Shown piece after piece: positions 1 to 25,619 of a stretch of 25,619 nt of DNA (the first letter of the stretch is position 1; every line of letters starts with the position of its first letter). Source of the stretch: a virus; IMG/VR virus record IMGVR_UViG_3300034418_003828, positions 1 to 25,619 of that record. One strand, written 5' to 3'. The notes beneath the pieces are model-generated. The model was not told the origin of the DNA. It ran no database searches and saw nothing but the letters and a program-made list of their open reading frames with translations. Position numbers and translations under genes: made by a program.

Positions 1-42
1 AAACATAATGATTGCCAAATTATATTTGTTTTAGTATATATG

Positions 43-80
43 ACCCCTGAGATTACATCAAAGGGGTTTCTTTTTGCCCT
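43..80 (+). terminator. Rho-independent terminator of an upstream operon
   Basis: ACCCCT (43-48) pairs with AGGGGT (62-67) around a 13-nt loop and is followed by a T-rich run (67-75). It probably ends a + strand transcript entering from the left, so the window starts at a transcription-unit boundary. Confidence 0.65.
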
Positions 81-107
81 TTTTTCCATGCCTTTTTGAT
101 ATTTTTG

Positions 108-115
108 TATAAATA
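108..115 (+). promoter_or_regulatory. T4-type late promoter octamer TATAAATA
   Basis: Exact TATAAATA with no recognisable -35 hexamer. By the T4 late rule (start about 6 nt after the octamer), transcription would start near 121, giving an approximately 19-nt leader for the small ORF at 140. The same octamer or a one-base variant recurs before other genes in the window. Confidence 0.55.
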
Positions 116-139
116 AACAGTATACATGGCAGAAACATT

Positions 140-316
140 ATGGCACAAAAATTATACACAATAGAAGAATACTTAGAATCTCTTAAAACACCAAAAGGTG
201 GATATACCAGAGAAACATTACTAACATTGGGTGTTTCATGGCCTCCTAAGAAAGGTTGGAAAAGAGATATCATCAAGGCAGTTAAACAGAACCCTAATTA
301 TATAATCAACACATAA
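140..316 (+). CDS. Small 58-aa phage protein with GGYTR...WPPKKGW motif, function unknown
   Basis: The ORF runs from ATG 140 to TAA 314-316. It begins MAQKLYTIEEYL and has a conserved-looking core: GGYTRETLLTLGVSWPP followed by KKGWKR, then a short basic C-terminus. The pattern of Gly, Trp and Pro resembles small proteins I associate with marine phages, but no function can be given. There is no clear ribosome binding site; a TATAAATA octamer 25 nt upstream would give an approximately 19-nt leader. An ATG at 126 is in another frame and stops after 12 codons. The gene sits between a terminator and the structured non-coding region, and could be cotranscribed with it. Confidence 0.6.
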   Translation: MAQKLYTIEEYLESLKTPKGGYTRETLLTLGVSWPPKKGWKRDIIKAVKQNPNYIINT

Positions 317-740
317 GGTTAGCAGGCCAGATTATAATACTGCTGTGGAAAAAGATATAGGAATATATCACACGCAACATACTGAGACACCCTCCTTGGA
401 TAGTAGAAATCCAGCCTGAAAGATGGAGGTAGGGGCAGAGACTAGAGCACAACACATTTAGTCAAGGATTGGTATAGTGTAAATGTTGATACACGCAAAC
501 ACTGAGCATAAAAATTTGCACAAGTTGGAACGCAGTGCATTACTGTAGAAATACAGGGCCTTTGCAGGTGAGGAGTGAGAAAGAGATCCTTTGCTAACAG
601 TGAAAAAATACCTGCTTCCTTATATGGCTGTGGCGTTACTCACAGAAAGAGGAGGGAACCTGCAATAGGTTCCTTCTGACTGCAACATCATCTACAGAAA
701 GTTCTCAATTATTACTTCTACATGTTGTTGTCTGAATAGA
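317..740 (+). ncRNA. Putative large structured non-coding RNA
   Basis: This stretch holds no credible ORF but many stable hairpins: GATATA/TATATC closed by a GGAA tetraloop (354-369); CCTCC/GGAGG (391-395/425-429) enclosing GGAT..ATCC with an AGTA/GAA internal motif typical of E-loops; CTGTA-GAAA-TACAG (543-556), a GNRA hairpin; CTGTG/CACAG (628-645); a 10-bp stem at 651-677 around GGAACC/GGTTCC; and the long-range GCAACAT/ATGTTGT (682-688/722-728). GCAGGT (564-569) can pair with ACCTGC (610-615). An approximately 16-nt motif, ACACGCAA..CTGAG, occurs twice (370-386, 491-506). Size and phage context recall giant phage RNAs such as GOLLD or ROOL, but I cannot assign a family. The ends are uncertain. 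The rest of the gap to 876 has a perfect AAGTCC/GGACTT hairpin (811-826). Confidence 0.5.
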
Positions 741-876
741 AAAAAACAAATAAATTAGCATCAAATGAAATGTCTGGAATGAAATGAAAGACATTGAAAG
801 TAGATGCGTTAAGTCCTTTAGGACTTGTTACTTGAGTCTAAGTGATAGCAAATTAATGGGAGAATTGTGGGTTAAT

Positions 877-884
877 TATAAATA
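877..884 (+). promoter_or_regulatory. T4-type late promoter octamer TATAAATA
   Basis: Exact TATAAATA, no -35 box. The expected start site (about 890) falls on the ATG of the next gene at 891, implying a leaderless message if this promoter is used. Confidence 0.5.
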
Positions 885-890
885 CTTTTA

Positions 891-1163
891 ATGACACTCA
901 CAGAAAAACAAAAAACACATCTATTAGATCCAAGATTACACAATGAACAACATGGTGAATTCATTAGGAAATGGGTTCATGATAATCAAGCACCTCAACA
1001 TATTGTTCACATATTGCACACATTGGCAACAACTCCCATCAAAGAAACCAAAAAGTTTGTGTTTTATAGGGATGAAATATACACCATGCCTACTCACACT
1101 GAAATATACAAAAAGACCAAAAAAGGCTGGATATTATCACATAAAATCAAGTATAATCCTTAA
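891..1163 (+). CDS. Hypothetical protein, 90 aa, basic
   Basis: I do not recognise this protein. It is basic, rich in His, Lys and Thr (starts MTLTEKQKTHLLD, ends SHKIKYNP), with no signal peptide or membrane segment. The next in-frame Met is near residue 66, so ATG 891 is the only sensible start. No Shine-Dalgarno precedes it; instead TATAAATA lies only 6 nt upstream, suggesting a leaderless transcript or readthrough from further left. It ends just before the promoter of the terminase small subunit gene. An overlapping ORF in another frame (943-1176) looks like a shadow. Confidence 0.6.
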   Translation: MTLTEKQKTHLLDPRLHNEQHGEFIRKWVHDNQAPQHIVHILHTLATTPIKETKKFVFYRDEIYTMPTHTEIYKKTKKGWILSHKIKYNP

Positions 1164-1167
1164 ACTG

Positions 1168-1175
1168 TATAAATA
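1168..1175 (+). promoter_or_regulatory. T4-type late promoter octamer TATAAATA
   Basis: Exact TATAAATA without a -35 box. The predicted start near 1181 gives a leader of about 38 nt carrying the GGAG of the terminase small subunit gene. It probably drives the 1219-4089 gene cluster. Confidence 0.6.
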
Positions 1176-1218
1176 ACACATGCATACAGACTGAGTCTGA
1201 CTTACACTTGGAGCAAAT

Positions 1219-1620
1219 ATGAGTGAGCAAGAAGCCAACAAACAACCAACCTATCAAAAGAAAAACATCAAATATGGTGAAAAAACAGTCATAGGCAGAG
1301 TTGTGGGCAAAAACAAAACAGTGATACCAGAAGATGAGTTTTATCAAATGGCCTGTTTGTTTTCAACTTGGAAAGACTTTTCAGAATATTATGGTGTGCA
1401 TGAAAACACACTGAGATACAATTTTAGTGATTTATACACAAAAGCAAGGCAAACCACTAAAAAGAAATTGCGCCAAAAGATGTTGGAAACAGCACTGAAT
1501 GGTGATAGAACCATGATGATATGGTTAAGTAAACAATGGTTAGACATGAGTGAAACACCTAACCACAGTCAAGGTGAGCAAGTGTTACCATGGAATGACA
1601 ATGAAGACAAAAACCTGTAA
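1219..1620 (+). CDS. Probable terminase small subunit
   Basis: 133 aa, preceded by GGAG 6-7 nt before ATG 1219. The middle (about residues 45-75) reads like a helix-turn-helix: a short acidic helix, FSTWKDFSEYYGVHENTLRY, then a basic stretch. The C-terminal half has the pattern ETALNGDRTMMIWLSKQWL, which resembles the segment found in small terminases of many marine phages (ALxGxxxxxxWLSKxxL). Small terminases recognise the packaging site and load the large subunit ATPase on phage DNA. The position two genes before the large terminase supports the call. What is seen is the motif pattern and synteny; DNA specificity is not visible. Confidence 0.7.
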   Translation: MSEQEANKQPTYQKKNIKYGEKTVIGRVVGKNKTVIPEDEFYQMACLFSTWKDFSEYYGVHENTLRYNFSDLYTKARQTTKKKLRQKMLETALNGDRTMMIWLSKQWLDMSETPNHSQGEQVLPWNDNEDKNL

Positions 1621-1622
1621 GT

Positions 1623-1669
1623 CCTGCACCCAGTCACAGTAAACTCTGAGCTCAGTACTGGTGTGCAGG
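1623..1669 (+). other. Strong hairpin between terminase small subunit and next gene
   Basis: CCTGCAC (1623-1629) pairs with GTGCAGG (1663-1669), and CCAGT (1630-1634) with ACTGG (1657-1661), with one bulged T. The loop contains the palindrome CTGAGCTCAG (1646-1655). No T-tract follows, so it is not a standard terminator. It could be an mRNA processing or stability element, or a packaging-site feature. Confidence 0.5.
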
Positions 1670-1689
1670 CAACCTTTGGAGATATATAG

Positions 1690-1899
1690 ATGAAAATACC
1701 TGATTACTTTAACAAACCCTCAAGTCACAAAACCACAGTGTTCAACACAATGACACTGACTGGTGTTAGTTTGATGTGGGGTATCATGCTGAATTTGATT
1801 TCACCATGGTGGAGCATATTGTGTGTGCTGACTATATTGGTGGGTTATGGTTCAGAAATAGAAGCCAGAAAAATTGACAAAGACAACCTCAGTCTCTAA
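1690..1899 (+). CDS. Small two-helix membrane protein between terminase genes
   Basis: 69 aa, with GGAG (1678-1681) before ATG 1690. Two hydrophobic segments are visible: about residues 18-38 (ending LMWGIMLNLI) and about 41-53 (WWSILCVLTILVG), separated by a short SP turn, with a charged C-terminus (EARKIDKDN). This is compatible with a small inner-membrane hairpin protein. Two-helix phage proteins of this size include holins, but there is no lysis gene next to it and the location between terminase subunits is not diagnostic. The stop codon is directly followed by the terminase large subunit start (TAAATG), so the two are translationally coupled. The function is unassigned. Confidence 0.6.
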   Translation: MKIPDYFNKPSSHKTTVFNTMTLTGVSLMWGIMLNLISPWWSILCVLTILVGYGSEIEARKIDKDNLSL

Positions 1900-3144
1900 A
1901 TGCGTCTCAGCAAGCCTCAGCAAGAAATATCAGATTCAAATGCTAGATTCAAGATTGCGGCTTGTGGCAGAAGATTTGGAAAATCATTCCTATCAATAAA
2001 TGAAATGGCCAAATTTGCCAGAGTGCCAAACAGGCGTGTGCTGTATTTGGCTCCCACATATAGACAGGCAAAAACAGTTATTTGGGATGAACTCAAAAGT
2101 CAACTGTATGCTGTTAATTGGATCAAGAAAGTAAATGAAAGTGACTTAACCATTAGATTGGTTAATAACAGCACCATTGTGATACGCAGTAGTGACAACA
2201 AAGATGCATTGCGTGGTGCCAAGTATGATTACATAGTGTTAGATGAGTGTGCATTCATGGATGCTGATGTATGGTATAGTGTATTGCGTCCAACATTATC
2301 AGACACAGGTGGTCATGCACTGTTTATCACAAGTCCCCTGGGCAGAAATTGGGTATATGATTTGTGGGTAAATGCATCAGTTGAACAAGATTGGCAAGCA
2401 TTTCAATATACCACATTGGCAGGAGGTTTTGTGCCACCAGAAGAAATAGAGGCTGCCAGAAGAGACCTAGATCAAAAGCGTTTTGAACAAGAGTATGAAG
2501 CACAGTTTGTTAATTATGCAGGTGTTATATTCTATGCATATTCAGATGAACACAATCTAAAAGCATATGATATGGGTCAATTTAACCCCAGAACACCCAT
2601 ATACTGTTCAATAGACTTCAATACCTCACCTATCACATGTGGTATTTGGGTCAAATGGCAAGACACTCTGCATGCCATAGATGAAATAGAAATATTTGGC
2701 AGTAACACACTGGAACTGGTGCAAGAAATCAAAAACAGATATGGTGACAGACAGTATGTGGCATTTCCAGATGCAACTGGAAGCAGAACAAACACCAACA
2801 GCATGGGTATGAGTGATCACATCATATTGAGTAACAATGGTTTCAAAGTGATAACAGACAAAACCAATCCCAATGTAAATGATTCAATTGCTTCAGTGAA
2901 TAGTATGTTGTGTAACAGTCTAGGTGAAAGAAAGTTATTCATTGACCCTAAATGCAAAAAAATGCGTGAAAGCATGTTGAAGTATGTGTACAAAGAGGGC
3001 ACCAGAATACCCCTCAAAGACAACATACATGATCACTTTGCAGATGGTATCAGATATATTTGCCACAGAATGTTTCCTGTAAAACAAACACCTATTTCAG
3101 ATGTGCGTCAGACCAGGATGAGTGCAGGCAGAATGATGAGTTAA
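1900..3144 (+). CDS. terL: Terminase large subunit (packaging ATPase/nuclease)
   Basis: 414 aa, typical length. The N-terminal ATPase has a Walker A-type motif GRRFGKS (residues 23-29), Walker B IVLDE (112-116, D115/E116) and the coupling motif ITSP (143-146). The C-terminal RNase H-like nuclease shows the expected acidic residues: D239 in SIDFNTS, D291 in FPDATGSR and D382 in HFADGIRY. The enzyme pumps DNA into the prohead through the portal and cuts concatemers at headful or cos ends. It resembles the Terminase_6 type. ATG 1900 directly follows the previous stop with no separate ribosome binding site, so translation is probably coupled. Unusually, the portal gene does not follow; small genes and an inverted operon intervene. 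Confidence 0.95.
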   Translation: MRLSKPQQEISDSNARFKIAACGRRFGKSFLSINEMAKFARVPNRRVLYLAPTYRQAKTVIWDELKSQLYAVNWIKKVNESDLTIRLVNNSTIVIRSSDNKDALRGAKYDYIVLDECAFMDADVWYSVLRPTLSDTGGHALFITSPLGRNWVYDLWVNASVEQDWQAFQYTTLAGGFVPPEEIEAARRDLDQKRFEQEYEAQFVNYAGVIFYAYSDEHNLKAYDMGQFNPRTPIYCSIDFNTSPITCGIWVKWQDTLHAIDEIEIFGSNTLELVQEIKNRYGDRQYVAFPDATGSRTNTNSMGMSDHIILSNNGFKVITDKTNPNVNDSIASVNSMLCNSLGERKLFIDPKCKKMRESMLKYVYKEGTRIPLKDNIHDHFADGIRYICHRMFPVKQTPISDVRQTRMSAGRMMS

Positions 3145-3152
3145 CATAAATA
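3145..3152 (+). promoter_or_regulatory. T4-type late promoter variant CATAAATA
   Basis: CATAAATA starts directly after the terL stop. The predicted start near 3158 would give a short leader containing AAGGAG (about 3162-3168) before ATG 3175. Confidence 0.45.
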
Positions 3153-3174
3153 ATGTATGTGTAAGGAGAAGCAA

Positions 3175-3468
3175 ATGGCAAAAGACAAAAAATACATAAG
3201 AGCAGGAGATCCCATACAGTTACCACCAAAAGGCTGGATGAGCAACATAAGTGGTAGAAGTGATGGCATCACCTCATTCACAGAAGAATTTGAAAGTCAC
3301 CCAGGTAGAATCATGTTCAAAAAATACATCAAAGCCTGGAGTGAATTAGATGATGTAGAACAAGCACTGAACAAAATTGCATGTACAGATGTATACAAGA
3401 ACTATGCAGATGCAATGAAGTATGGTGTTCAAATATACAACAGAAGAGGTAATCCCAGTGAGTTTTAA
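3175..3468 (+). CDS. Hypothetical protein, 97 aa
   Basis: I do not recognise this gene. The ORF is open from ATG 3157, but ATG 3175 has a good AAGGAG 6-7 nt upstream and gives MAKDKKYIRAGDP, so I prefer it. The protein is charged, with a probable helical C-terminal half (FKKYIKAWSELDDVEQALNK) and the ending YNRRGNPSEF; no membrane segment. It lies between terL and a group of short overlapping genes, behind a late-promoter-like octamer, so it is likely a late-expressed accessory or packaging-associated protein; that is inference from position only. Confidence 0.6.
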   Translation: MAKDKKYIRAGDPIQLPPKGWMSNISGRSDGITSFTEEFESHPGRIMFKKYIKAWSELDDVEQALNKIACTDVYKNYADAMKYGVQIYNRRGNPSEF

Positions 3469-3712
3469 GGATGGCAACTTACCTCCAAAGAACAGCAGTG
3501 AGGGTAAAAAATTAGAAAAGATGGTGTACAACACACCATTCCTCAAAAAGATGAGAGCCAAAAGTCAAGGTGAAAAGTATTCAGACATAGTGAGTGCTGA
3601 TAATTCAGAAGAATACAAGCAGAACTATGACAAAATAGATTGGACTCACAACAGAGATCAAAAAAAGAACTACAGGGTAAAAATAAATGGCAAATACCAA
3701 GATGAAGACTAG
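3458..3712 (+). CDS. Hypothetical protein, 84 aa, GTG start
   Basis: The reading frame is open from an ATG at 3422, but that ATG has no ribosome binding site. GTG 3458 has GAGGT 7 nt upstream, and starting there overlaps the previous gene by 11 nt, a normal coupled overlap. The resulting protein begins MSFKDGNLPPKNSSEGKKLEK and is hydrophilic and charged, with K and D/E throughout and no cysteines or membrane segments. No homologue is recognised. The choice of GTG over ATG is inference from spacing. Confidence 0.5.
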   Translation: MSFKDGNLPPKNSSEGKKLEKMVYNTPFLKKMRAKSQGEKYSDIVSADNSEEYKQNYDKIDWTHNRDQKKNYRVKINGKYQDED

Positions 3713-4089: not shown

Positions 4090-4140
4090 GTATATGTGCT
4101 TGTCCTAACTAGCCTATGCTGATATTAAATTAACAGTATA

Positions 4141-4335: not shown

Positions 4336-4342
4336 AATAATA

Positions 4343-4370
4343 ATTATAACACAGTGTAGAAGTTTGTCAA
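4343..4370 (-). promoter_or_regulatory. Near-perfect sigma70-type promoter
   Basis: Reading the - strand: TTGACA (4370-4365), 16 bp, TATAAT (4348-4343), with TG one base before the -10 (extended -10). This is the best host-type promoter in the window and precedes no protein gene, only the structured region ending at the 4145-4183 terminator. Confidence 0.8.
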
Positions 4371-4382
4371 CCTTTTTTGGCC

Positions 4383-4472: not shown

Positions 4473-4477
4473 TGTTA

Positions 4478-6767: not shown

Positions 6768-8450
6768 TTGGCCAATCAATATTCTGAATTCATTACCTCA
6801 ACGCACAGTCTCTATGACAGATATCAAAAAGAATGGCAGTTATGCATCAACAGTTGGTATGGTGGTGAAGAATACAAAAGAGCAAGATTGCTGAGAGCTT
6901 ATAATGTAGACCTACAAACAGCCTCAGAACAAGTCACCACTTATGTAACAGATGAAAGTGGTGCAGTAGTTGGCAAAAGCAAAGCCAAACTCATGCAGAA
7001 CAGCACAAACAGTTCTAGTGCGGCTGCCAGAGGTGATGATGTTATTGATGGCACCTTTTATGGTGAAAAATTAGATAACACACCACTGTACAACTATGTT
7101 AAATTGGTTGTGGCAGAATACAATGCACTGCTGTTTAGAAACCCACCTCAGAGAACATTACCAGATACCCCAGAAATCAACACATTCCTACAAGATGTAG
7201 ATGGTGAAGAGAATTCAATTGGGGAATTCATGAGTCTAGTAGATATGTACACCACAGTGTTTGGTGTATGTCATGTGGGTTGTTACAAGCCAGCAGGTTC
7301 AGAAATACCAAGATGGAGAATACATACTCCACTAGATATCACAAACTGGGAATATGCATATGACATAGATGGCAACTTGAAACTAAACAAAGTTGCAATC
7401 AAAATAGATGATTCAGATGTGCATGAAGTGTACAGATTAATGACTCCAGAAACCATTGACACAGTGTTTGTGGCCAAAGAAGAAGAAGACTACATACCCC
7501 CACAAATACAAGGCCTCACACAGATAGATGAAGGTGTATTCATGGTTAGCCAAGAAAATGAATTGGGCTACATACCACTTAAAACATTCTATCAAAGCAC
7601 CAAAGTGTTCAACAATGTGGGCACAACAGTTATACAAGATGTTGCCAGCATACAGAGAAGCATATATGGTGACTTAGCAGAGATTTACAGCGCCATAACC
7701 TATGGTTCCCACCCAACATTACTGGTAGATGAAACCACAAGTCAACTCAATGATGGTGCAGTAGGCAGTGAGCCAGGGTCAATTATCACAGTACAAGCAG
7801 GACTTACAGGAGAGCCTGCGTATGTGTATGAATTTAGATCACCACAATTAGACAGTATTCAACAGATCAAAGAACTTATAGACAGCAAAATAGAAAAATT
7901 AAGTCAAATTGCCATGTTACGCAGTGAAGACTTGATCAAAGCCAGCAGAAGTGGTGAACAAATTGAAGTATATGATGACAAATTGTCAGCTCTTATACGC
8001 AGGAAAGCAACAAATTTAGAAAATGGTGAATCAAAACTGTGGGATATCTGGTTTGATTGGACAAATCAACAGAGACCTGCAGATTTTGGTGTATCATATA
8101 ATAGACAGTATAACAAAAAAGCTCTAGAACATGAATTAAATGAAATCAACCTCACAATGAGTGTGTTGGAAAAATATGAAAGCATGATGACTAGAGCCCC
8201 AAGTGAAGAATTTGCCTCAGAGGCAGAAGCCATAGGTAGGGCACAAGAGTTAGGAGGAGATGGTGCTCACAGTCATGTGGAAGATGGTGTTACAGTGTAT
8301 ATGCCATTTAGAACACATGCTGAATATGAGAGTGCTATTGGATTCCAATCAGAATCCATAGATGAGACTTTCAAAGCAGATATGCTGGACAAAGTCAAAC
8401 AGAGACTAGAACAGTTATTGAATGCAAGTTCAACAACCAACAGTCTTTAA
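6768..8450 (+). CDS. Portal protein, TTG start
   Basis: 560 aa, typical of siphovirus portals. Portals form the dodecameric ring at one capsid vertex through which the terminase pumps DNA. The body contains features seen in portals of the DUF4055-like group: YNALLFRNPP near residue 120, a long beta-rich wing, and the helical segment SPQLDSIQQIKELIDSKIEKLSQIA (about 363-387) followed by SGEQIEVYDDKL. Position before scaffold and capsid supports the call. The start is TTG 6768, with AGGAG 5-6 nt upstream; the next in-frame Met is about 75 codons in, too late for a portal. Behind its own late-type promoter. Confidence 0.85.
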   Translation: MANQYSEFITSTHSLYDRYQKEWQLCINSWYGGEEYKRARLLRAYNVDLQTASEQVTTYVTDESGAVVGKSKAKLMQNSTNSSSAAARGDDVIDGTFYGEKLDNTPLYNYVKLVVAEYNALLFRNPPQRTLPDTPEINTFLQDVDGEENSIGEFMSLVDMYTTVFGVCHVGCYKPAGSEIPRWRIHTPLDITNWEYAYDIDGNLKLNKVAIKIDDSDVHEVYRLMTPETIDTVFVAKEEEDYIPPQIQGLTQIDEGVFMVSQENELGYIPLKTFYQSTKVFNNVGTTVIQDVASIQRSIYGDLAEIYSAITYGSHPTLLVDETTSQLNDGAVGSEPGSIITVQAGLTGEPAYVYEFRSPQLDSIQQIKELIDSKIEKLSQIAMLRSEDLIKASRSGEQIEVYDDKLSALIRRKATNLENGESKLWDIWFDWTNQQRPADFGVSYNRQYNKKALEHELNEINLTMSVLEKYESMMTRAPSEEFASEAEAIGRAQELGGDGAHSHVEDGVTVYMPFRTHAEYESAIGFQSESIDETFKADMLDKVKQRLEQLLNASSTTNSL

Positions 8451-8501
8451 TGGAGATATATAAAACTACGCTAACTCCAGGCGAGAACTAAGGAGAAGAT
8501 A

Positions 8502-9365
8502 ATGAGTGAAGATATCACTTTAGATACACCAGTTGCAGGTGAGAATGTGCAACCAGTAAGTACAGATGCTGAAGCAGACACGCAAGTGGAAGCAAAATCT
8601 GAAACAGTTGATGCCTCAAAGGCACCAGCAGTAGAACTGAGAGATGGTAAAATGTTTGTTGATGGTGTGAGAGTTTACACCAGAGATGACACAAACAAAA
8701 TAGCCGCAAATGCCAAAAGAGATGCTGAAAGCAGAATCTTAGAGGATTTGCAAGTAGACAGTTTTGACAAGGTTAAAACAGTTGTAAGTCAATTACAAAG
8801 TGTTGACCCAGAACAAGACAGTCTTAATCTTAACAGTTTGAGAGATGCAGTTAAGAAGCGTGAGCAAACTGTGGAAGAGCTGAGAGCAGAACTTCATGCA
8901 GTAAAAACAGATTACGCTCTTAAAGAACATGTAGGCACACTCAGAGACAACATGCCTTCTAGTTGGGACGCTAACCAGAAACAAGCAGTTGTTGATTTGA
9001 TGAAAGCCAGAGACATGTTGCACTACCAAGATGGCACATTTGCTATCAAAAGTGGTGATGATTTCTTGACTACTGATGGTGAAACACCAGACTATAAGTC
9101 TGCTGTTGAAACAATTGGTAAAACCCTAGGTTTGCCATTTGCCAAGAAAGGTATTGACATGGTTGACTCTGAAAAAGCACCAAGCAAGACTACAGAATCA
9201 GCACCAATAAATGAAAGTTTATTAAAGACTGATCCACTGTACAGAAAGGCTTATGTAGACCTCAGAGAAAAACAAAGATTAAGCAGAGGTCAAATCACTG
9301 ATGCTTTGATTAAAAAAACAATGGACAGTTATGAAATGAACTTGGCTTCCAAGATGTTGAGATAA
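8502..9365 (+). CDS. Probable scaffolding (capsid assembly) protein
   Basis: 287 aa, between portal and major capsid protein, the usual place of a scaffold. The N-terminus is acidic and low complexity (ENVQPVSTDAEADTQVEAK), and the middle has a coiled-coil-like region (about residues 105-145, DAVKKREQTVEELRAELHAVK). Scaffolds guide prohead assembly and are removed before DNA entry. No protease domain is visible. Strong AAGGAG before ATG 8502. In the 51-nt leader, TGGAG (8451-8455) can pair with CTCCA (8475-8479). Confidence 0.7.
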   Translation: MSEDITLDTPVAGENVQPVSTDAEADTQVEAKSETVDASKAPAVELRDGKMFVDGVRVYTRDDTNKIAANAKRDAESRILEDLQVDSFDKVKTVVSQLQSVDPEQDSLNLNSLRDAVKKREQTVEELRAELHAVKTDYALKEHVGTLRDNMPSSWDANQKQAVVDLMKARDMLHYQDGTFAIKSGDDFLTTDGETPDYKSAVETIGKTLGLPFAKKGIDMVDSEKAPSKTTESAPINESLLKTDPLYRKAYVDLREKQRLSRGQITDALIKKTMDSYEMNLASKMLR

Positions 9366-9397
9366 CTGATTCAAAACGCTAGATAAAGGAGAAAATT

Positions 9398-10357
9398 ATG
9401 GCGGCAGTAGGAACTACCTCATTAACTTCTTTGTATGAAGACATTGTTGCAGACCTTATTCCATATTATGATAATGCGGTCTTGCTACCAAACCCTTCAC
9501 TTATTGTGAACTCATACAACTTAGAAGGAACAGTGGGGAACCAAGTAAAAATTCCTGTAACCAATTCATGGGGTTCAGGTAACTCTTCAATAGGAGAGAA
9601 CACAGCAATTATTACTAACGCAGAAGACAACTTTGGTCCTTCAAATGTTAGTTTAAGTGTTAACAAAAGAGGCGCAGGTTCTAAAGTATCAAATGAATCT
9701 TTAGAAGATGTTCCAGGAACAGTTGCACAAGCAACTACAACAAGATTAGCAAGAGCTATTGCACAAGGTACTGATGTAGCAGGATTTAGAGTCATGCTTT
9801 CAGGATCAGAAACAGCAATGACAGACATTGCTAACATTAATGTTACTAATGATGGTTACATTAACTCAGAACTAACAGGTGCTGACTTGGCAGTTGTGTT
9901 CTCACCAGAAGCAGGTGGTTATGCTATGAAGCGTCAACCAACTGTTAAAATGTTTGAAGACATTGACACTGATGCAGTAGAATTTGTTGCAACAGTGAGA
10001 AATGGTTTTGCACAGATCAAATCTGATTACATCAGAGCTGTTGCAACTTCAAATGTTATTGGTGCGGCTGCTTCAATCAGTGCAACACTTGACCACTTTG
10101 CAACTTCAGTTGCTAACTTAAGAAATGTAAATGCACCAACAGATGCTGGTGGATTCTACATTGCTTGTGTTACTCCAGGTCAAGAATTAGCACTAAGCAA
10201 AGAGCTTAATGGTGTTGGTGGAATCAGCAGTGGTTCTATTGGTTCTGTTGCTCAGTTAGCGGCTAATGATGCATTATTGCAAGGTTTAATCTCTGTAGCA
10301 ATTGGCTGTAGATTTGTTAGATCAAACAACTTACCAAGAGACTTACTCACAGCGTAA
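9398..10357 (+). CDS. Major capsid protein (HK97-fold expected)
   Basis: 319 aa. It follows the scaffold and has the composition expected of a capsid protein: Ala/Val/Thr/Asn rich and few Cys. The N-terminus (TTSLTSLYEDIVADLIPYYD) and the beta-rich stretch NQVKIPVTNSWGSG resemble coat proteins of marine phages. AAGGAG 7 nt upstream is one of the strongest ribosome binding sites here. Codon use is shifted to T-ending codons (GCT, TCT, GTT) relative to neighbours, which fits very high expression. No N-terminal delta domain or protease gene is evident, so scaffold function is probably separate. Confidence 0.85.
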   Translation: MAAVGTTSLTSLYEDIVADLIPYYDNAVLLPNPSLIVNSYNLEGTVGNQVKIPVTNSWGSGNSSIGENTAIITNAEDNFGPSNVSLSVNKRGAGSKVSNESLEDVPGTVAQATTTRLARAIAQGTDVAGFRVMLSGSETAMTDIANINVTNDGYINSELTGADLAVVFSPEAGGYAMKRQPTVKMFEDIDTDAVEFVATVRNGFAQIKSDYIRAVATSNVIGAAASISATLDHFATSVANLRNVNAPTDAGGFYIACVTPGQELALSKELNGVGGISSGSIGSVAQLAANDALLQGLISVAIGCRFVRSNNLPRDLLTA

Positions 10358-10374
10358 GGTAATTAGGGGATAAT

Positions 10375-10935
10375 ATGGCTTTTATAACAGCAGGTGGATC
10401 AGTAATAAGTTACGCAGAAGCAGTTGATGTGAGAAATCTTGATCAAAGACTGTTTGAATCTAATGAGATTGATTTTGCTAATGTGCCTGATGCCCCTGGC
10501 AGTCTAGATGACTATGTTGAAGACTTGGCCCAAAGAACAACTGATAGAATTAATGCTAAAATTAAGGCTAACAGTAAATGGCCACAGTACTTGAGCTATG
10601 CTGGTATCAGTTTTGATGGTATAAGCAATATACCTGATTTTGATCCCAACAAAATAGTTTCTAGAAAACAAGATTTTACAGACATGTGTGCTTTTGGTGT
10701 ATTGTACATGTATTTGTTGCCTAGGATTGCTGACTTTGGTAATCCAGAAAGCAGTGAAGTGCAAAAAATACAATACTATGAAAGGCGTTTCAATGAAATG
10801 TTTGCTGAATTAATGAGTGATTTCACTTGGTATGATGCAGACAATTCAGGTTCAGTTACAGATTCAGAAAGAATGGTAACTTATCAGCCTACAAGACGCA
10901 CAAGAAGTAAAAGAAGTATTGCTAGGGTATCATAA
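10375..10935 (+). CDS. Head-tail connector (gp6-like) with EF-hand-type loop
   Basis: 186 aa directly after the capsid gene, the position of the HK97 gp6-type adaptor that docks under the portal. The middle is helical (YVEDLAQRTTDRINAKIK; DMCAFGVLYMYLLPRIADF). Near the C-terminus DADNSGSVTDSE (residues 154-165) matches the 12-residue EF-hand calcium loop: D1, D3, S5, G6, V8, E12. The tail end is strongly basic (RRTRSKRSIARVS). Calcium binding would be structural; this is inferred from the motif only. Confidence 0.65.
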   Translation: MAFITAGGSVISYAEAVDVRNLDQRLFESNEIDFANVPDAPGSLDDYVEDLAQRTTDRINAKIKANSKWPQYLSYAGISFDGISNIPDFDPNKIVSRKQDFTDMCAFGVLYMYLLPRIADFGNPESSEVQKIQYYERRFNEMFAELMSDFTWYDADNSGSVTDSERMVTYQPTRRTRSKRSIARVS

Positions 10936-10937
10936 AC

Positions 10938-11330
10938 ATGGCATTCAGAGATGATCTCAAAGCAAACTTAGATGTAGCACTTAGTGGTACAAATGTCAGT
11001 GTAAGTGCAGAATTGCCTTTCACTAGTTCAGGTGAAGCTCTACATATGAAAAATATGAAGAAAGTTTACTTGGATGAAGACAACATTCTAAGAGAGCCAC
11101 TGGTTGAAAGTTTAGACTTTGATCCAGTTGAGAACATTGTGAGAACAGTGACTGGATATCTGGTTATAGATGCTAAAAACCCAATAAGTGACATTGATGT
11201 TATCACAGACAGAATTATCAACAGCAAAAATGCTGTTAGTAATCAAATTAGCAGAGATTGTGAAATGACTACAAGTTTTGAAGGTGATAAATTGGTGTTT
11301 CAGTTTGATTTTGAATTTACAACAATATAA
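10938..11330 (+). CDS. Probable tail terminator or neck protein
   Basis: 130 aa, starting 2 nt after the stop of the connector gene. It starts MAFRDDLKANLDVALSG and ends in alternating beta-like FEGDKLVFQFDFEFTTI. Its position between connector and major tail protein, its length and its alpha/beta pattern fit a tail terminator (gpU-like) that caps the tube before joining to the head, but no diagnostic motif is seen. A head-closure protein is the main alternative. Confidence 0.45.
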   Translation: MAFRDDLKANLDVALSGTNVSVSAELPFTSSGEALHMKNMKKVYLDEDNILREPLVESLDFDPVENIVRTVTGYLVIDAKNPISDIDVITDRIINSKNAVSNQISRDCEMTTSFEGDKLVFQFDFEFTTI

Positions 11331-11342
11331 AGGAGATTAGCA

Positions 11343-11825
11343 ATGGCTAAAATAACAGTAAATGAAACAGCAAGTTTTGTTTCACTAGATATTAATGCAA
11401 GTGGCTCATTTGCTAACGCAAATGTGGCTATGGCTGATACAGCAAATGTGCTGACAGTGCCTGCATTACAGGATGTAACTATTAATGCTACTCCAGGTAC
11501 ATTTACTTGGGAACAGTTAGATAGTTTAAGCCAACAAGTTGTTACAACTCCTAGTACCAATTCATTAGATATGAATATGGTGTTAGATGATACTGCATTC
11601 TTTACAGGTGCAGGATCTACTTTAGGATTATGGGACATCACCAATAATAAAACCAAAGCATACTTTAGGTTGAATATGAATGGTGAGTCTGCAGGAGACT
11701 TCTACATTGAAGGTGAAGGATATTTAAGTGGCTTGGCCATGACAGTATCACCAACTGCACCTGTATGGGTCAGTCCTATGAGTATCTTAGTTGATGGCAA
11801 TTATGTACAAAGTGCATACGCTTAA
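11343..11825 (+). CDS. Major tail tube protein
   Basis: 160 aa, with AAGGAG 7 nt before ATG 11343. It is beta-rich and rich in Ala, Thr and Asn, with few charged residues (SFANANVAMADTANVLTVP), and contains the tube-like segments TNNKTKAYFRLNM and GDFYIEGEGYLSGLAMTV. The gene order (connector, terminator, tube, chaperones, tape measure) strongly supports the call. A terminator right after it (11853-11878) is typical for this very abundant protein. Confidence 0.75.
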   Translation: MAKITVNETASFVSLDINASGSFANANVAMADTANVLTVPALQDVTINATPGTFTWEQLDSLSQQVVTTPSTNSLDMNMVLDDTAFFTGAGSTLGLWDITNNKTKAYFRLNMNGESAGDFYIEGEGYLSGLAMTVSPTAPVWVSPMSILVDGNYVQSAYA

Positions 11826-12832: not shown

Positions 12833-13097
12833 ACAATTTGAAAAAAGAATGCAGGAACTGGTAGAGTTTCCTGATATTCTTGTGGAAGAATTGTTGCCTA
12901 TTGTTAAAAAAGAAACACCCATCAGAAGTGGCAACGCCAGAAGAAAAACCAAACAACAGAGAAACCAAATTAAAAGTGATTACCCATACGCAGGTAGATT
13001 GAATGATGGTTGGAGCCAACAAGCACCAAAAGGATTTATAGAACCAAGCCTCAAGCAACTGGACAGGGTAGTTGAGAAACAGTTGAGGAAGATCTAA
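12816..13097 (+). CDS. HK97 gp10-like tail/head-joining protein
   Basis: 93 aa; ATG 12816 or 12819 lies inside the end of the T frame, with no separate ribosome binding site, so it is coupled. It contains TPIRSGNARR near residues 35-44 and PYAGRLNDGWSQQAPKGFI (56-74), the pattern of the HK97 gp10-like family (PxxSGxLR...YaxxlexG...PRPF), which acts at the head-tail or tail-completion joint. That family is usually encoded before the tail tube, so its place between chaperones and tape measure is unusual. Its TAA overlaps the tape measure ATG (TAATG). Confidence 0.6.
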   Translation: MMIDSKQFEKRMQELVEFPDILVEELLPIVKKETPIRSGNARRKTKQQRNQIKSDYPYAGRLNDGWSQQAPKGFIEPSLKQLDRVVEKQLRKI

Positions 13098-15502
13098 TGG
13101 CACAAGATATCAGAGTAACACTTACACTTGATAACAGACAGTTTCAAAGAGCTGTCAAACAAAGCAAAAGTGAAATAAAGAGTTTTGAAAGTAGTAGTAC
13201 TAGAAGTTTAGGCTTAATACAAAGTGCCTTGGTAGCAATAGGTGGTACTGCTGTTATAGGCAGTATTGCTAGAACTGGAGCCGCATTCCAAGACTTACAG
13301 AATTCATTAAATGTGGTGTTTGGATCTGTAGAAGCAGGTGCTGATGCATTTGACAGAGTTCAACAGTTTGCTGCCAGCACACAGTTCAGTGTGCAAACAC
13401 TTACACAAGCATTTGTTCAGTTGAAAGGTGCTGGTGTTGAACCCACAGCAGAATTATTGCAAACATTTGCAGACACTGCCTCAGTTACAACAGATCAAAT
13501 GGGCACATTCCAAGCCGCACTTGATCTTGTTAGTAGAAGTACTGCAGGTGGATTAGGACTAGAAGACCTCAACAGATTAGCAGACAGAGGTATTCCTGTA
13601 TTCCAAATTCTACAAGAAAGAATAGGCAGAGGCAGACTTGAACTAAGTGAATTTGGTAAAACAGCAGAGGGTGCCAATACCATAGTCAGAGAACTGGTAG
13701 CAGGACTACAAGAGAACTTTGGTGGTGCATTAGAAAGTCAAGTAGGCTTGATCAACTTTGAATTAAACCAATTGGGTGATGCACTTGACAAATTGAAAGT
13801 TGCACTGTTTGACACATTCAGTGAAGATGCTGCCAAAGGCATACAAGGTTTAACAGGTGCAATCAACAATCTAGCAGAAAACACTGATGAACTAATTCCT
13901 GTGTTAAAATCAGTTGCAGGTGCATTACAAACACTAGTTGGTGTATTTGTGATATTTAGATTAGGTACCAAAGATGCTCTAGCAGGATTTGTGTTGTTTG
14001 CAGACAAATTAAAAGCATTCTTTACAGGTGGTGTGCTGGTAGGAATAGCAAATTCATTTAAGAATTTAGGTGCCGCCATTGGTATATTCATAGCAGCCAT
14101 AAGAGGATTCACTTTAGGTGGATTTATAACTGCCTTAGGTGCATTATTAGCCGCAATGGGTCCAGTTGTAGCCATTATTGCAGGTGCTACTATTGTTACA
14201 GATGGTTTATTTAGAATATTCAATGATGGTAAAGGCATTATTGGCACTGTTAAAGATCTATTTGGAGACACAGCAGATGAAATAGATGGCATGACAGGTG
14301 CTATGCAAAGAAATGAACAAGCACAAAAAGAATTTGAAGCCAGACAAAAGGCAGCCGCAGAGGCAGCCGCCAAAGCACAAGAAGAATTCAATGCTGAATT
14401 TGGTGCTACAATAACACTGGCAAAAGAATTTGCCAAAATAGATTACAGAACAGAATTAGAACAATTAGAAGGTAGACTGCAAACAGCCAAAGACACACTG
14501 TTCAAATTGAGAATGGCATTTGTGGCAGCCAATGGTGACATTGAAGGTTACATGGAATTGGTTGAAGCAACCAAAAATGAAATCAAGGCGGCTGAACAAG
14601 CATTAGCAGACTACAATGCAGAACTAGCAGATGATGGCTTACAGTCATACAATGAATTCTTAGTACAACTGTTGGAAAACACTCAAGAGTTTTCAAATGA
14701 ACAAAAGAATGCACAAAAGGCATTGGAATTCTTGAATTCAGAAATGGCACAAAATGCCATGACAGCAGAAGAAATGGCTTATGCAATGGATAGGCTGTAC
14801 AGCATATTAGGTATGGATCCTCCAGGTGTACAAGCATTTGAAGATTTCACTGACAGTCTAGAAGATTTAAGTTTAACCACAGAAGAATATGCAGAATATC
14901 AAAGACAATTAAATGCACTCATAGAAAAATATCCAGAACTTGCAGATGAAGCCAGAAGAGCACAAGATGAATTAAATGATGCACTCAGTGAAGATGAAGC
15001 ACTAAATTCATTCTTAGACACATTGGGTAGAGCACAAAAATCACTCAGTGAAGATCTTGCTACTGCATTGTTAGAAGGCAAATCAGTAATGAGTTCATTC
15101 AAAGATTTCTTCAAAACACTGATCACACAAATTATTGCAGACACACTGAGATTAATGGTGATACAACCAATTCTCAGCAGTTTGTTTGGCATACAGTTTG
15201 GAGCAGGAGGCTCAGTGAGTGGTATGAACTTTGGTGGTTCATTCTTTGGCAAACTGTTTGGCAGAGAAAGAGGTGGTCCTGTAATGAAAAACAAGCCATA
15301 CATTGTAGGTGAAAAAGGACCAGAGCTGTTTGTGCCTAGAGGTAGCAGTGGAGACATAGTGCCAAATGGTGCAATGGGTGGTGTGACCAACATATACAAC
15401 ATCAGTGCTGTGGATACACAGAGCTTTAGACAAGCACTAGCCAGAGATCCAGAATATCTTTTTAACTTAACACAAAGTGGTGCTAGGAGGATGCCAAGAT
15501 GA
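13097..15502 (+). CDS. Tape measure protein
   Basis: 801 aa. The N-terminus (TLTLDNRQFQRAVKQSKSEI) and the block near 115-180 (TADLVS-like repeats, STAGGLGLEDLNRLADRGIP, RELVAGLQENFGG) are typical of lambda gpH-like tape measures. Hydrophobic helices lie around residues 265-375, a strong Ala/Glu coiled coil around 398-431, and the C-terminus has the family signature GEKGPELFVPRG near 738. It sets tail length and is ejected with the DNA; at about 0.15 nm per residue it predicts a tail near 120 nm. It is coupled to both neighbours (TAATG before, ATGA after). Confidence 0.9.
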   Translation: MAQDIRVTLTLDNRQFQRAVKQSKSEIKSFESSSTRSLGLIQSALVAIGGTAVIGSIARTGAAFQDLQNSLNVVFGSVEAGADAFDRVQQFAASTQFSVQTLTQAFVQLKGAGVEPTAELLQTFADTASVTTDQMGTFQAALDLVSRSTAGGLGLEDLNRLADRGIPVFQILQERIGRGRLELSEFGKTAEGANTIVRELVAGLQENFGGALESQVGLINFELNQLGDALDKLKVALFDTFSEDAAKGIQGLTGAINNLAENTDELIPVLKSVAGALQTLVGVFVIFRLGTKDALAGFVLFADKLKAFFTGGVLVGIANSFKNLGAAIGIFIAAIRGFTLGGFITALGALLAAMGPVVAIIAGATIVTDGLFRIFNDGKGIIGTVKDLFGDTADEIDGMTGAMQRNEQAQKEFEARQKAAAEAAAKAQEEFNAEFGATITLAKEFAKIDYRTELEQLEGRLQTAKDTLFKLRMAFVAANGDIEGYMELVEATKNEIKAAEQALADYNAELADDGLQSYNEFLVQLLENTQEFSNEQKNAQKALEFLNSEMAQNAMTAEEMAYAMDRLYSILGMDPPGVQAFEDFTDSLEDLSLTTEEYAEYQRQLNALIEKYPELADEARRAQDELNDALSEDEALNSFLDTLGRAQKSLSEDLATALLEGKSVMSSFKDFFKTLITQIIADTLRLMVIQPILSSLFGIQFGAGGSVSGMNFGGSFFGKLFGRERGGPVMKNKPYIVGEKGPELFVPRGSSGDIVPNGAMGGVTNIYNISAVDTQSFRQALARDPEYLFNLTQSGARRMPR

Positions 15503-16833: not shown

Positions 16834-17289
16834 ATGATTAGAAGAGCAGGTATACAGGATTTTGATAGAATAATGGAGATGATGATTAACTTTGCCAATT
16901 CATCTCCTATGGAAGCACACCATAATCCACAATATGATGATCAATATGTGAGAAAATTGTTGTGTAGCATAATGAGTAATGGTGTAATCATAGTAGGTGA
17001 ATATCAAGGCAACATAGAGGGCATGTTGATTGCACACATAAATCAAGATCCATGGTTACCACATGTCAAAGTGTTAAGAGAAATGGCATGGTGGGTTGAA
17101 CCTCCTGCAAGAAGTAGCACATTGGGTTACAAATTATTGAAAAAATACATAGAATATGGTGAAAAAATGAAAAAACATGGGGTGATAGATGAATTTATGC
17201 TCACACTGATGGAGATTTCACCAGACTTTGACCTTGAAAAAAGAGGTTGGAACAAAGTAGAACACAATTATGTGTTTGAAGGAGCATAG
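16834..17289 (+). CDS. GNAT-family N-acetyltransferase in tail module
   Basis: 151 aa. It starts MIRRAGIQDFDRIMEMM, the usual GNAT first strand and helix, continues with GEYQGNIEGMLIAHI (strands 2-3) and EMAWWVEPPARSSTLGYKLLKKYI, where strand 4 and the acetyl-CoA loop are expected; the consensus Q/RxxGxG/A is replaced by R-S-S-T-L-G. GNAT genes at this place, just before gpJ-like proteins, are recurrent in marine phages. The enzyme probably acetylates a peptide, host protein or tail protein; substrate unknown. Only 4 nt separate it from the preceding gene and 3 nt from gpJ. Confidence 0.75.
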   Translation: MIRRAGIQDFDRIMEMMINFANSSPMEAHHNPQYDDQYVRKLLCSIMSNGVIIVGEYQGNIEGMLIAHINQDPWLPHVKVLREMAWWVEPPARSSTLGYKLLKKYIEYGEKMKKHGVIDEFMLTLMEISPDFDLEKRGWNKVEHNYVFEGA

Positions 17290-20351: not shown

Positions 20352-20360
20352 GGAGAACAC

Positions 20361-22121: not shown

Positions 22122-22154
22122 AAACAGTCTTTACAGCAAAAAACACACAAATCT

Positions 22155-22162
22155 AATAAATA
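22155..22162 (+). promoter_or_regulatory. T4-type late promoter variant AATAAATA
   Basis: AATAAATA in the 101-nt gap after the adhesin gene. Predicted start near 22168, giving a leader of about 55 nt with TAGGAG before ATG 22223. It would give the distal fibre genes their own promoter. Confidence 0.45.
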
Positions 22163-22222
22163 GTACATATAAAACATTCTGTAAAACCTTAGTATTACAG
22201 TCTTATCCCATAGGAGCCCAAC

Positions 22223-22993
22223 ATGTCAAATAGACTTTTAGACTTCTCCCAATATATTGGTGGAAGTGACAATGTAAAAGTAATCAATCTTTTTCCAAGA
22301 AGCCAAAAATCATTCACATATGACTTTCAAGGTGATGTATCAGGATACACATTCTCTGCAGATCAGCAAAGTTTAGTGTTAGACAGTATCAGTTTTGATA
22401 GAGCAACAGGCTTGCCTAATTTTGCAGACAGCACAATTACTGGTTATATGAATGCAAACAGTTCAATTGATGCTAACACTTATATTAATACAAGTGCCGC
22501 AAGTACAGGTCAAGTTCAATTCACAATACCAAGTGATAGATACACAGGACCATTGCTACCAAATGCAAGAAAAAATCCTGTAATGACAGTTGTGAGTTTT
22601 GAATGGGAAACAGATGATTCTCCAGCACAAAAAGAAAGTCACAGATGGGCTGTATTAGAAACATGGGAGCCAGGTGTAACAGTGGGTGATCCAGCAGTAA
22701 GCAATGTGTTTGTTGCTATTGGTGTAGGTGCTATCAGTTCATTTACAAGTGATGCAGGCACAGATGCAAGTAGAACAGAAGGCACTTATACAGTTAGTGG
22801 TTTACCAGATGCAACTTCAGAGGGTGCTGGTCACAGTTTCCTAGTTGTAGTAGATGCTTCAGGTGGTACCACAGTAGATATACTTGCTAGAGGCACAGGT
22901 TTTGCAGTGGGAGATACAATCAAAATACTTGACAATAACATGGGTGCAGGTGGTGGAGCAGATATAACTGTAACTGTGACTGCTGTAGCATAA
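22223..22993 (+). CDS. Tail fibre / structural protein
   Basis: 256 aa, with TAGGAG before ATG 22223. The N-terminal part (RLLDFSQYIGGSDNVKVINL; YDFQGDVSGYTFSADQQSLV) looks like a fibre attachment domain. The C-terminal ~90 residues (GVGAISSFTSDAGTDAS ... DILARGTGFAVGDTIKILD) are a beta domain I associate with structural proteins of marine myo- and siphoviruses. It is likely part of the fibre complex together with the long fibre that follows, whose gene starts 11 nt downstream (AAGGAG between). Confidence 0.65.
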   Translation: MSNRLLDFSQYIGGSDNVKVINLFPRSQKSFTYDFQGDVSGYTFSADQQSLVLDSISFDRATGLPNFADSTITGYMNANSSIDANTYINTSAASTGQVQFTIPSDRYTGPLLPNARKNPVMTVVSFEWETDDSPAQKESHRWAVLETWEPGVTVGDPAVSNVFVAIGVGAISSFTSDAGTDASRTEGTYTVSGLPDATSEGAGHSFLVVVDASGGTTVDILARGTGFAVGDTIKILDNNMGAGGGADITVTVTAVA

Positions 22994-23004
22994 GGAGATA
23001 ACCT

Positions 23005-25619
23005 ATGGCTAATGTAGTAGTAACAACCACAGATCTAGGTGTAAATGTAACATCAACTGCCAGTAATATTTCAGTTACAGATGACAGCAGTAACATTGTT
23101 GTAACAAATGTTGCTACTGCTATTGCAAATGTCACAGTCAGTTCAACAGAAACCAATGTAAATGTCAGTCAAACAGCCATTGTTTCAAATGCGGCTGTTA
23201 GAACAAAAATATCAGTTGAAAATGTAAGTGGCTTTGGCAACTTATCATATGACAATACCACAAGTTCAAATGGTGTAATTCAATACACTGGCACAAGTGA
23301 AAGTGATGTCAGAGGCACAATAAGCAGTACCAAAATCAGTGGTTATGGTAATGTGGTATACAATCAAGGCAATGGTGAAATACAATACACTGGTATCAGT
23401 CAACAAGAAATCAGAGACAGTTTCAGTGTACAAAACATCAGTGGTGATGGTTATCTAAACTACCAAAATTCTGCAGGTACAATACAATATGTAGGTCCAG
23501 ATGATGCTGATTATAGATTAGCAGTCAGTGGTGGTTATGGTATAACTTATTCAAATGTCACAGGTGTTATTGAAACTGCAAATTCAGATATCAGAGGTTT
23601 ATTATCAAACACACTGCCAATTACATACAACAATGCCACAGGTGAAATTGGTTTTGATGCCAATTTAGATGATCTTACACTTAAAAAATATCAAGAAACC
23701 ATTGTAGATCAAGGGCCACAAAGTGGTAATGTCACAGTAGATATAGCAGATGGCACTGTGCATCAAATGGTATTGAATGGCAATATCACAGGATTAACAC
23801 TTAGCAATATTTCAAATGGTGGTAGTGCTACATTTGTGTTTAGACAAGATGGTTCTGTGGGTGGATTTGGGTTAGACTTGACCACACATGCCAGTAACTG
23901 GACAGGATGGCAATTTATTGATGACAACAGCACAATAGATCCAGCAGTTGCCAGTAACAGTGTGATGACAGTGTTCTACAATGCAGATACCAGTGGAAAC
24001 TACCCAACTTACACAGCCAGTATGATGGATTTTGTAGATGAAGATCCATTTACAACAAAAACCACAGATGATTTAACAGAAGGCAATGTAAATTTATATT
24101 ACACCACTGACAGAGCCAACACTGCAATAGAAAACTTTGTTGGTGATATGGATATCAGTGGCTTGCCATTTGTGATGAATCCTGATAAAAACAACAGTCT
24201 AATTGCAAACAGTTTATTAAGTGGTGGTAACATTGTGTTAGGTGCTTCATTGCAGGACAATGAAGATTATAGTAATGCCACAACCAGTTGGAATATTCAA
24301 GTGCCAAGAGCATTGCAGGGTAATCCTACACAACAACCAAATGTTTACATCAAATGGAATGAAACCATAGATAAATGGCAGTTCACCAATGATGGTAATA
24401 CCTATGTGGATTTTGCGGCTGACACTGGTGATTTGCCAGAAGAGGCTGGTGCAACAGGTAATGTAGGCAATGCTTATTTCACAACAACAAGAGCTAGAGA
24501 AAGTGTAAATGCCAGTAACAGTATAACACCAAGTGGTAATGGTAGTCTTGCTTACAACAGCACAACTGGATATTTTACATTTACACCAGCAGATGTACCT
24601 CAAACAACAGATGATTTACCTGAAGGTACAACAAATTTATACTTCTCAAATGCACATGCAAACACAGCCATAGTATCATACTTTGGAGACAGTTCAAACT
24701 TCCCATTCACAATGGAAGGCAACTTAAATGTTAATGGTAATGTAGAAGTTGCAGGTAATTTGAACTATGTGAATGTTGAAGATTTATTAGTACAAGATCA
24801 AAGCATAACACTTAACTATGGTAATGCCACAGCCAGAGATGCATTTGTTTATGTAGACAGAAGTGGTACAGGTGGTGGTACAAATGTTGCTATTAAATGG
24901 AATGAAGCCACAAACAGTTGGCAGTTTACCAATGATGGCACAACATACAACAATATCAGTTCAACAACAGGCACAGTTACAAGTGTAGATAGTGGAGCAG
25001 GTTTAACAGGTGGTCCTATCACAAGCAGTGGCACATTGGCTGTTGGTGCAGGATATGGTATCACAGTAAATGCTGATGACATTGAAGTAACAAATTCAGA
25101 AATACAAGCACAAGCCAACATAGCAATTGGCAACAACACCACTGACAATCTAACAGAAGGCAGTGCAAACTTATACTTTACAACTGCAAGAGCCAACAGT
25201 GCAATGGATGATTATTTGGTCAGTATCACTGCAAATGTTGACAGTGTAAATGGTGCAACAGGTGTAGTAAACCTTGACAGTGATGATATTACCCAAGGTG
25301 TTGTTAATAGATATTATGCAAACTCATTGGTAGACAGTCATTTGGTTGGTGGTACAGGCATTGACTATACCAGTGGCACAATAGATTTAGCAGATACAAC
25401 AGTAACACCTGGAACATATGGTAATGCTACACATACACCAGTTGTAACAATTGATCAGCAAGGTAGAATCACAGTTGCCACAGTGGCAGCCACATTGGGT
25501 TCATATGGTAACACAGATGTTGCCAACTTCTTAGAAAATGGCTTTGGCAGTAACAGTATTGTAACAACTGGTAATATAACTGCTGACTATTTCTTTGCAA
25601 CAGAAGAATTCATAGGTGA
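23005..25619 (+). CDS. Long repetitive tail fibre protein (3' end outside window)
   Basis: The frame is open from ATG 23005 (AAGGAG upstream) to the window end, at least 871 codons with no stop, so the gene is partial. It is Asn/Thr/Ser/Gly-rich. First a set of SG.G.L.Y....G.IQYTG repeats (units near 23224, 23335, 23437, 23524). Then TDDLxEG..NLYFT..RA.. repeats near 24064, 24428 (degenerate), 24604, 25138 and 25282. Two copies of IKWNE....WQFTNDG.TY (near 24350 and 24894) are similar also at DNA level. These repeats are common in marine phage fibres and predict a trimeric beta-rich shaft. Confidence 0.8.
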   Translation, partial: MANVVVTTTDLGVNVTSTASNISVTDDSSNIVVTNVATAIANVTVSSTETNVNVSQTAIVSNAAVRTKISVENVSGFGNLSYDNTTSSNGVIQYTGTSESDVRGTISSTKISGYGNVVYNQGNGEIQYTGISQQEIRDSFSVQNISGDGYLNYQNSAGTIQYVGPDDADYRLAVSGGYGITYSNVTGVIETANSDIRGLLSNTLPITYNNATGEIGFDANLDDLTLKKYQETIVDQGPQSGNVTVDIADGTVHQMVLNGNITGLTLSNISNGGSATFVFRQDGSVGGFGLDLTTHASNWTGWQFIDDNSTIDPAVASNSVMTVFYNADTSGNYPTYTASMMDFVDEDPFTTKTTDDLTEGNVNLYYTTDRANTAIENFVGDMDISGLPFVMNPDKNNSLIANSLLSGGNIVLGASLQDNEDYSNATTSWNIQVPRALQGNPTQQPNVYIKWNETIDKWQFTNDGNTYVDFAADTGDLPEEAGATGNVGNAYFTTTRARESVNASNSITPSGNGSLAYNSTTGYFTFTPADVPQTTDDLPEGTTNLYFSNAHANTAIVSYFGDSSNFPFTMEGNLNVNGNVEVAGNLNYVNVEDLLVQDQSITLNYGNATARDAFVYVDRSGTGGGTNVAIKWNEATNSWQFTNDGTTYNNISSTTGTVTSVDSGAGLTGGPITSSGTLAVGAGYGITVNADDIEVTNSEIQAQANIAIGNNTTDNLTEGSANLYFTTARANSAMDDYLVSITANVDSVNGATGVVNLDSDDITQGVVNRYYANSLVDSHLVGGTGIDYTSGTIDLADTTVTPGTYGNATHTPVVTIDQQGRITVATVAATLGSYGNTDVANFLENGFGSNSIVTTGNITADYFFATEEFIG

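Follow-up and report, generated by a model that had tools for sequence, protein, structure and literature searches.

Loss of HCGD and other short words from an aquatic tailed-phage genome: probable elimination of host restriction sites

Introduction

Why would a phage genome keep CpG dinucleotides only where a G precedes or a C follows them? This question is raised by a stretch of 25,619 nucleotides (IMG/VR record IMGVR_UViG_3300034418_003828, positions 1 to 25,619), referred to below as the window. This 25.6-kb fragment belongs to the genome of a tailed phage (double-stranded DNA), described as aquatic, and has a GC content of 38%. An earlier note, made from the sequence alone, had judged the pattern to fit avoidance or loss of the palindromic site HCGD, which is CG without a 5′ G and without a 3′ C; the outline of not-G, core, not-C is written H...D throughout. 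Elimination of Type II restriction sites is established, mostly in non-temperate phages (Rusinov et al., 2018, PMC6286503), and site avoidance itself is thus already known. In the present case, host restriction systems, including one with an HCGD-like specificity, probably drove the elimination of their recognition sites, a reading to which we give a probability of roughly 0.77.

Results

Expected counts were derived from base composition, except where another basis is named. The window contained 76 CpG versus about 920 expected, an observed/expected ratio of 0.08, which agrees with the severe depletion and the figure of about 75 in the earlier note. By flanking bases, they were distributed as ACGC 25, GCGT 23, GCGG 12, CCGC 11, GCGC 4, and GCGA 1, with zero in all other contexts. 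HCGD was accordingly absent from both strands, in genes and gaps alike as the note had stated, while about 610 copies were expected. The trinucleotide frequencies of the window itself predicted about 17 copies (P about 4e-8 for the observed 0). In L001, the closest relative by terminase, the CpG flanks are ordinary and 143 of 300 CpG lie within HCGD; at that mix, the probability of finding none among 76 is about 4e-22.

Every CpG was indeed preceded by G or followed by C, but the rule proved tighter than that. TCG/CGA was gone whatever its flanks, with a single copy versus about 576 expected; this copy (GCGA, positions 8482 to 8483, plus strand) lies in the intergenic stretch that precedes the gene at 8502. 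CCG/CGG was kept solely within GCCGC/GCGGC, the one exception being a GCGGT at 9477 to 9478 (plus strand), the only CpG of the window in the GCGGD/HCCGC context. TCGC/GCGA and HCCGC were therefore nearly absent, with one copy each, although they fall outside HCGD. As a result, 74 of the 76 CpG were in ACGC/GCGT, GCGC, or GCCGC/GCGGC, compared with only 94 of 300 in L001.

The depletion did not follow the reading frame. The 65 coding CpG were evenly spread over the codon phases (22/18/25), and the 3.1 kb of noncoding DNA held 11 CpG versus 93 expected. When synonymous codons were shuffled within each gene, codon boundaries carried on average 420 CpG and 260 HCGD, compared with the observed 24 and 0; codon usage was consequently ruled out as the cause of the CpG loss and is a consequence of it. 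The arginine codons comprised 231 AGA, 22 AGG, 15 CGT, 7 CGC, and no CGA or CGG, so the note was right to derive the arginine usage from the CpG loss but wrong to describe it as AGA/AGG only.

It is scarcely credible that the flank pattern is an accident of the dinucleotide or codon bias that AT-rich phages ordinarily show. The GC content of 38% and the moderately low CpG (about 0.5) of most relatives are in keeping with such a bias, but the boundary HCGD restored by shuffling already refute it. Moreover, in a sample of 105 unrelated contigs of at least 4 kb, collected with a terminase DNA pattern for AGA-AGA, the CGA ratio fell no lower than 0.22 and every contig contained HCGD. This control was strict, since the selection of the sample favored CpG-poor phages.

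The absence was replicated in other contigs. The contig L002, which is 99.5% identical to the window, contained 20 CpG and no HCGD; the single-base differences between the two, too few for any further conclusion, include none that creates a CpG. A further contig, of the same species as the window, is represented by two stretches, L207 and L249, whose overlaps with the window are 99.5% and 99.95% identical. L249 extends 5,858 bp beyond the right end of the window, into sequence that the author of the note had not seen, and this extension carried 15 CpG, all of the allowed kinds, and no HCGD. L207 had 39 CpG, including one HCGD, an ACGT that arises from a single-base difference within the overlap.

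The flank rule was also wider than CpG. Words other than CpG were counted in the window plus the 5,858-bp continuation. AGCT stood at about one-fifth of its expected count, and each of the 21 remaining copies was GAGCT or AGCTC, leaving no HAGCTD (P = 2e-10). GCAGC/GCTGC was reduced, and all 15 survivors had a 5′ G or a 3′ C, leaving no HGCWGCD (P = 1e-7). Both values survive the fact that many cores were scanned for flank effects. Thus, one not-G/core/not-C rule covers three cores, CG, AGCT, and GCWGC, in this genome. TTTAAA (0 versus about 20 expected) and GTGCAC (0 versus about 15) were missing as well. HCGD, HAGCTD, HGCWGCD, TTTAAA, and GTGCAC are palindromic, and CGA/TCG is asymmetric.

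Sparing by a 5′ G recurred in the family, with GATC (L033, L243), GCGC (L036, L038, L041, L045, L243), ACGT (L209, L210), and AGCT (L242). A 5′ G was over-represented 2.0- to 3.0-fold among the survivors of depleted GCGC, AGCT, ACGT, and GATC, compared with a ratio of 1.06 in palindromes that are not depleted. For the same four words, the ratio in unrelated phages was 0.4 to 1.2, and over all palindromes tested there it was 0.4 to 1.25. The sparing was not seen in relatives for TCGA, GTAC, TGCA, and CTAG, and the idea that it is a property of all depleted palindromes was rejected as only partly true. Other excluded-flank patterns in relatives were VTTAAB (L052) and VGGCCB (L060). In the pelagiphage HTVC026P (L016), CCAG/CTGG was mostly retained only with a 5′ G or a 3′ C.

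The relatives purge differing words, many of them palindromic and of restriction-site type, in a patchwork that does not match the phylogeny. CGA alone is avoided in L006 to L008, L012, and L025; CGA and ACGT in L013; CGA and CCGG in L061 and L062; CCGR in L060; exactly YCGR in L063; and ACGY in L011. Many relatives avoid AGCT and GTAC, and L038 and L070 avoid a long list drawn from AATT, AGCT, GTAC, CTAG, TGCA, CATG, ACGT, and YCWGR. The last word, a five-base palindrome (CCAGA, CCTGA, TCAGA, etc.), is absent together with AATT, AGCT, CTAG, and TGCA from L038, L039, L070, and their near relatives. Avoidance of CGA changed at least five times on the terminase tree and never occurred together with the group AGCT/GTAC/AATT/TGCA/CATG (0/11 versus 36/46, P = 2e-6, near-identical contigs having been removed by hand beforehand). 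A set of avoided words that changes over the tree, and the exclusivity of CGA and the AGCT group, are as expected if the hosts dictate the avoidance.

The closest distinct relative by head genes is L013, with 82% identity in the capsid, 80% in the gene at the scaffold position, and 71% in the portal. Because L013 avoids CGA and ACGT only, the HCGD rule of the window looks like an addition to a CGA-avoiding background.

Two named phages showed further purged words. Over its whole length, DSL-LC06 (L015) lacks the asymmetric four-base word AGCC/GGCT (0 versus about 128 expected), in both orientations on the sense strands. HTVC026P, likewise over its whole length, is without GGCC, CCGG, GCAGC, GGTGA, CTCTTC, AGATCT, GATATC, GTTAAC, and TCTAGA, all of which resemble restriction sites.

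The earlier note had also offered a methylation-deamination process with this specificity, in which a host or phage enzyme acts on the C of HCGD and the sites disappear by C-to-T decay, with no cutting involved. In its favor, the window has high TG and CA (1.55 and 1.67) and a slight excess of T, seen where G follows a four-fold site (z = 1.6) and in the alignment with L013 (22/29 versus 84/135 C to T, P = 0.20). However, relatives whose CpG flanks are normal also show increased TG and CA (1.2 to 1.6). At the aligned third positions, for which the portal gene (6768 to 8450, plus strand) was used, C had become T in 145 of 244 changed CpG versus 392 of 710 other changed C (P = 0.26), and CGN arginines of the relatives were still arginine at 105 of 175 positions, nearly all as AGA/AGG. 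Selection with preserved proteins fits better than methylation followed by deamination, because the lost CpG show no significant C-to-T excess and the arginines became AGA/AGG. CpG decay, moreover, cannot remove AGCT, GCAGC, AATT, GTAC, or TTTAAA. Deamination was consequently ruled out as the main cause, and we consider a purely mutational origin very unlikely.

A phage-borne modification, which the note had likewise raised, was not supported either. No C5 methyltransferase (PF00145) was found in the 52 family contigs tested, which speaks against a phage-encoded enzyme of this kind. PF00145, PF01555, and PF02086 had no match in the window, nor had PF00145 and PF01555 in the L207/L249 contig, both of which are parts of an incomplete genome. 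Genes of the N6/N4 methyltransferase family PF01555 occur in L081 (the L003 contig), L247 (the L229 contig), and L248 (the L209 contig); these few members stand apart from the rest of the family, which seems to depend on site loss.

A related proposal confines the attack to HCGD, either through modification of the phage DNA near CpG or through a methyl-dependent (Type IV) nuclease that prefers certain neighboring bases. YCGR is the context in which the Type IV enzyme McrA recognizes its sites. A McrA-type pattern, with YCGR absent and other CpG normal, was not found in the window, where ACGT and ACGG are absent too; HCGD is wider than YCGR. Exact avoidance of YCGR, a Type IV site listed in PMC6286503, does occur in L063, but that survey did not show Type IV sites to be strongly avoided, and no modification gene was found in the window, a genome fragment. 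We therefore regard this proposal as unlikely.

Cleavage of messenger RNA at a three-base word, in the manner of MazF, was also ruled out. The coding strands of the window contain neither TCG (0) nor CGA (0), and the loss of both words from the sense strands excludes a single-stranded RNA target.

With respect to gene content, the terminase large subunit (1900 to 3144, plus strand), which was used for the family tree, is followed by the portal gene, the major capsid gene (9398 to 10357, plus strand), the tape measure gene (13097 to 15502), and tail genes that run rightward to the window end. Compared with named phages, the terminase comes nearest to its counterparts in DSL-LC06, a phage from a lake metagenome (43.5% identity), and in HTVC026P (40%). 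Two scans of bacterial and archaeal genomes for prophages or mis-binned contigs that could name a host found no relative. The terminase is closest to L001, while the portal, capsid, and neighboring head genes (6768 to 11825) are closest to L013, which suggests, from sequence similarity, recombination between the packaging and head genes. The terminase gene of L002 carries an 11-base insertion relative to the window at 2345, either a frameshift or an assembly error. A GNAT acetyltransferase gene (16834 to 17289) lies amid the tail genes; at the same place, DSL-LC06 encodes an N-acetyltransferase, and HTVC026P and HTVC111P encode an acyltransferase.

Discussion

Selection against double-strand cutting at the purged words is, in our judgment, the explanation left. 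The restriction systems of the host population would cut unmodified DNA at several short words, namely HCGD, TCG/CGA, HAGCTD, HGCWGCD, and probably TTTAAA and GTGCAC. Each unmodified site in an entering phage genome would then carry a risk of cutting, and synonymous and intergenic changes that remove sites would be selected until no site remained. CpG with a 5′ G or a 3′ C would be spared if the enzyme read them poorly or not at all. The agent would be a restriction enzyme, a single one reading HCGD, and the host would carry the matching modification. The strongest support for HCGD avoidance is the same H...D outline on the two other cores of the window and on GATC, GCGC, ACGT, and AGCT in relatives. 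CpG chemistry cannot explain this outline on AGCT and GCAGC. The proposal of the note that HCGD avoidance was imposed from outside is strengthened by these other cores, but it was an incomplete account, as CGA is purged in every context and words without CpG are purged too.

Several observations weigh against this explanation. No host, restriction enzyme, or matching methylation was seen, the two genome scans being empty. Of the allowed contexts, ACGC and GCGC occur about threefold less often in the window than in L013, with no reduction of GCCGC, and a simple rule leaves this unexplained. The weak T excess at four-fold sites leans toward C-to-T change. CGA/TCG is a three-base, asymmetric word, unlike the orthodox palindromic sites that are usually eliminated (PMC6286503). 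Finally, relatives avoid CGA, ACGT, and CCGG separately, so HCGD may be the union of the sites of several enzymes.

This last possibility is the most serious one. Separate systems at CGA, ACGT, CCGG, ACGG/CCGT, and HCCG would together leave only GCG and CGC, without any HCGD enzyme, and the H...D outline of CpG would be coincidental. The separate avoidance of such parts, from CGA alone to CGA with ACGT or CCGG, YCGR, CCGR, and ACGY, supports it, as does the loss of TCGC and HCCGC. Nevertheless, avoidance of ACGG alone was seen in no relative, and the same outline on AGCT and GCWGC here and on four palindromes in relatives would have to be a repeated coincidence. We lean against the union while treating it as a genuine contender. 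The recurrence of the outline on AGCT and GCWGC favors, without proving, a single enzyme for HCGD on top of an inherited layer of CGA avoidance, and the loss of TCGC and HCCGC needs this layer plus one further preference. A further reading, which is rather doubtful, gives the hosts a family of kindred restriction enzymes whose cores are interchangeable (CG, AGCT, GCWGC, GATC, GCGC, and ACGT) and which all reject a 5′ G on either strand, HCGD and TCG enzymes included.

Among known phenomena, the avoidance of restriction sites by phages (PMC6286503) is similar in that short sites, palindromes included, are lost almost completely over the genome of a double-stranded DNA phage with unchanged proteins. 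The window differs in its core of two bases, on either side of which one base is excluded, in the purged three-base asymmetric CGA/TCG, and in a flank rule that holds across cores; the enzymes, too, are putative. A methylation motif from marine prokaryotes or samples, VATB, resembles HCGD in that its core, AT, is a palindrome of two bases and one base is excluded on each side (PMC9516812); two-base cores with one excluded flank thus exist. VATB differs from HCGD in its core and excluded flanks (AT with T/A, versus CG with G/C), and the passage concerned describes it as a methylation motif, without phage avoidance. The depletion of GANTC in pelagiphages (PMC9516812) is similar in that a motif linked to the host is depleted in certain phage lineages but not in others, and dissimilar in that it concerns a single classical motif rather than a purge of many words. 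Vertebrate-type CpG suppression by methylation and deamination shares the low CpG and the high TG and CA, whereas the window has no significant C-to-T excess, an absolute flank rule, and purged words without CpG. Our literature searches brought up no earlier description of HCGD, of an asymmetric three-base word being purged, or of several cores obeying one flank rule, and nothing matching on enzymes that read TCG or HCGD or on CpG-depleted phages.

If the explanation by restriction is true, metagenomic phage genomes could be read backwards to list the restriction specificities of uncultured hosts, including those of enzymes not yet isolated. Some of these specificities, with a two-base core or a three-base word, would imply a cutting frequency far above that of the usual restriction enzymes. 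The window would then illustrate the extent to which a phage genome can be rewritten, at hundreds of sites in 25 kb, while its proteins are kept, and the sets of purged words that switch between lineages would provide a signal for matching phages with their hosts.

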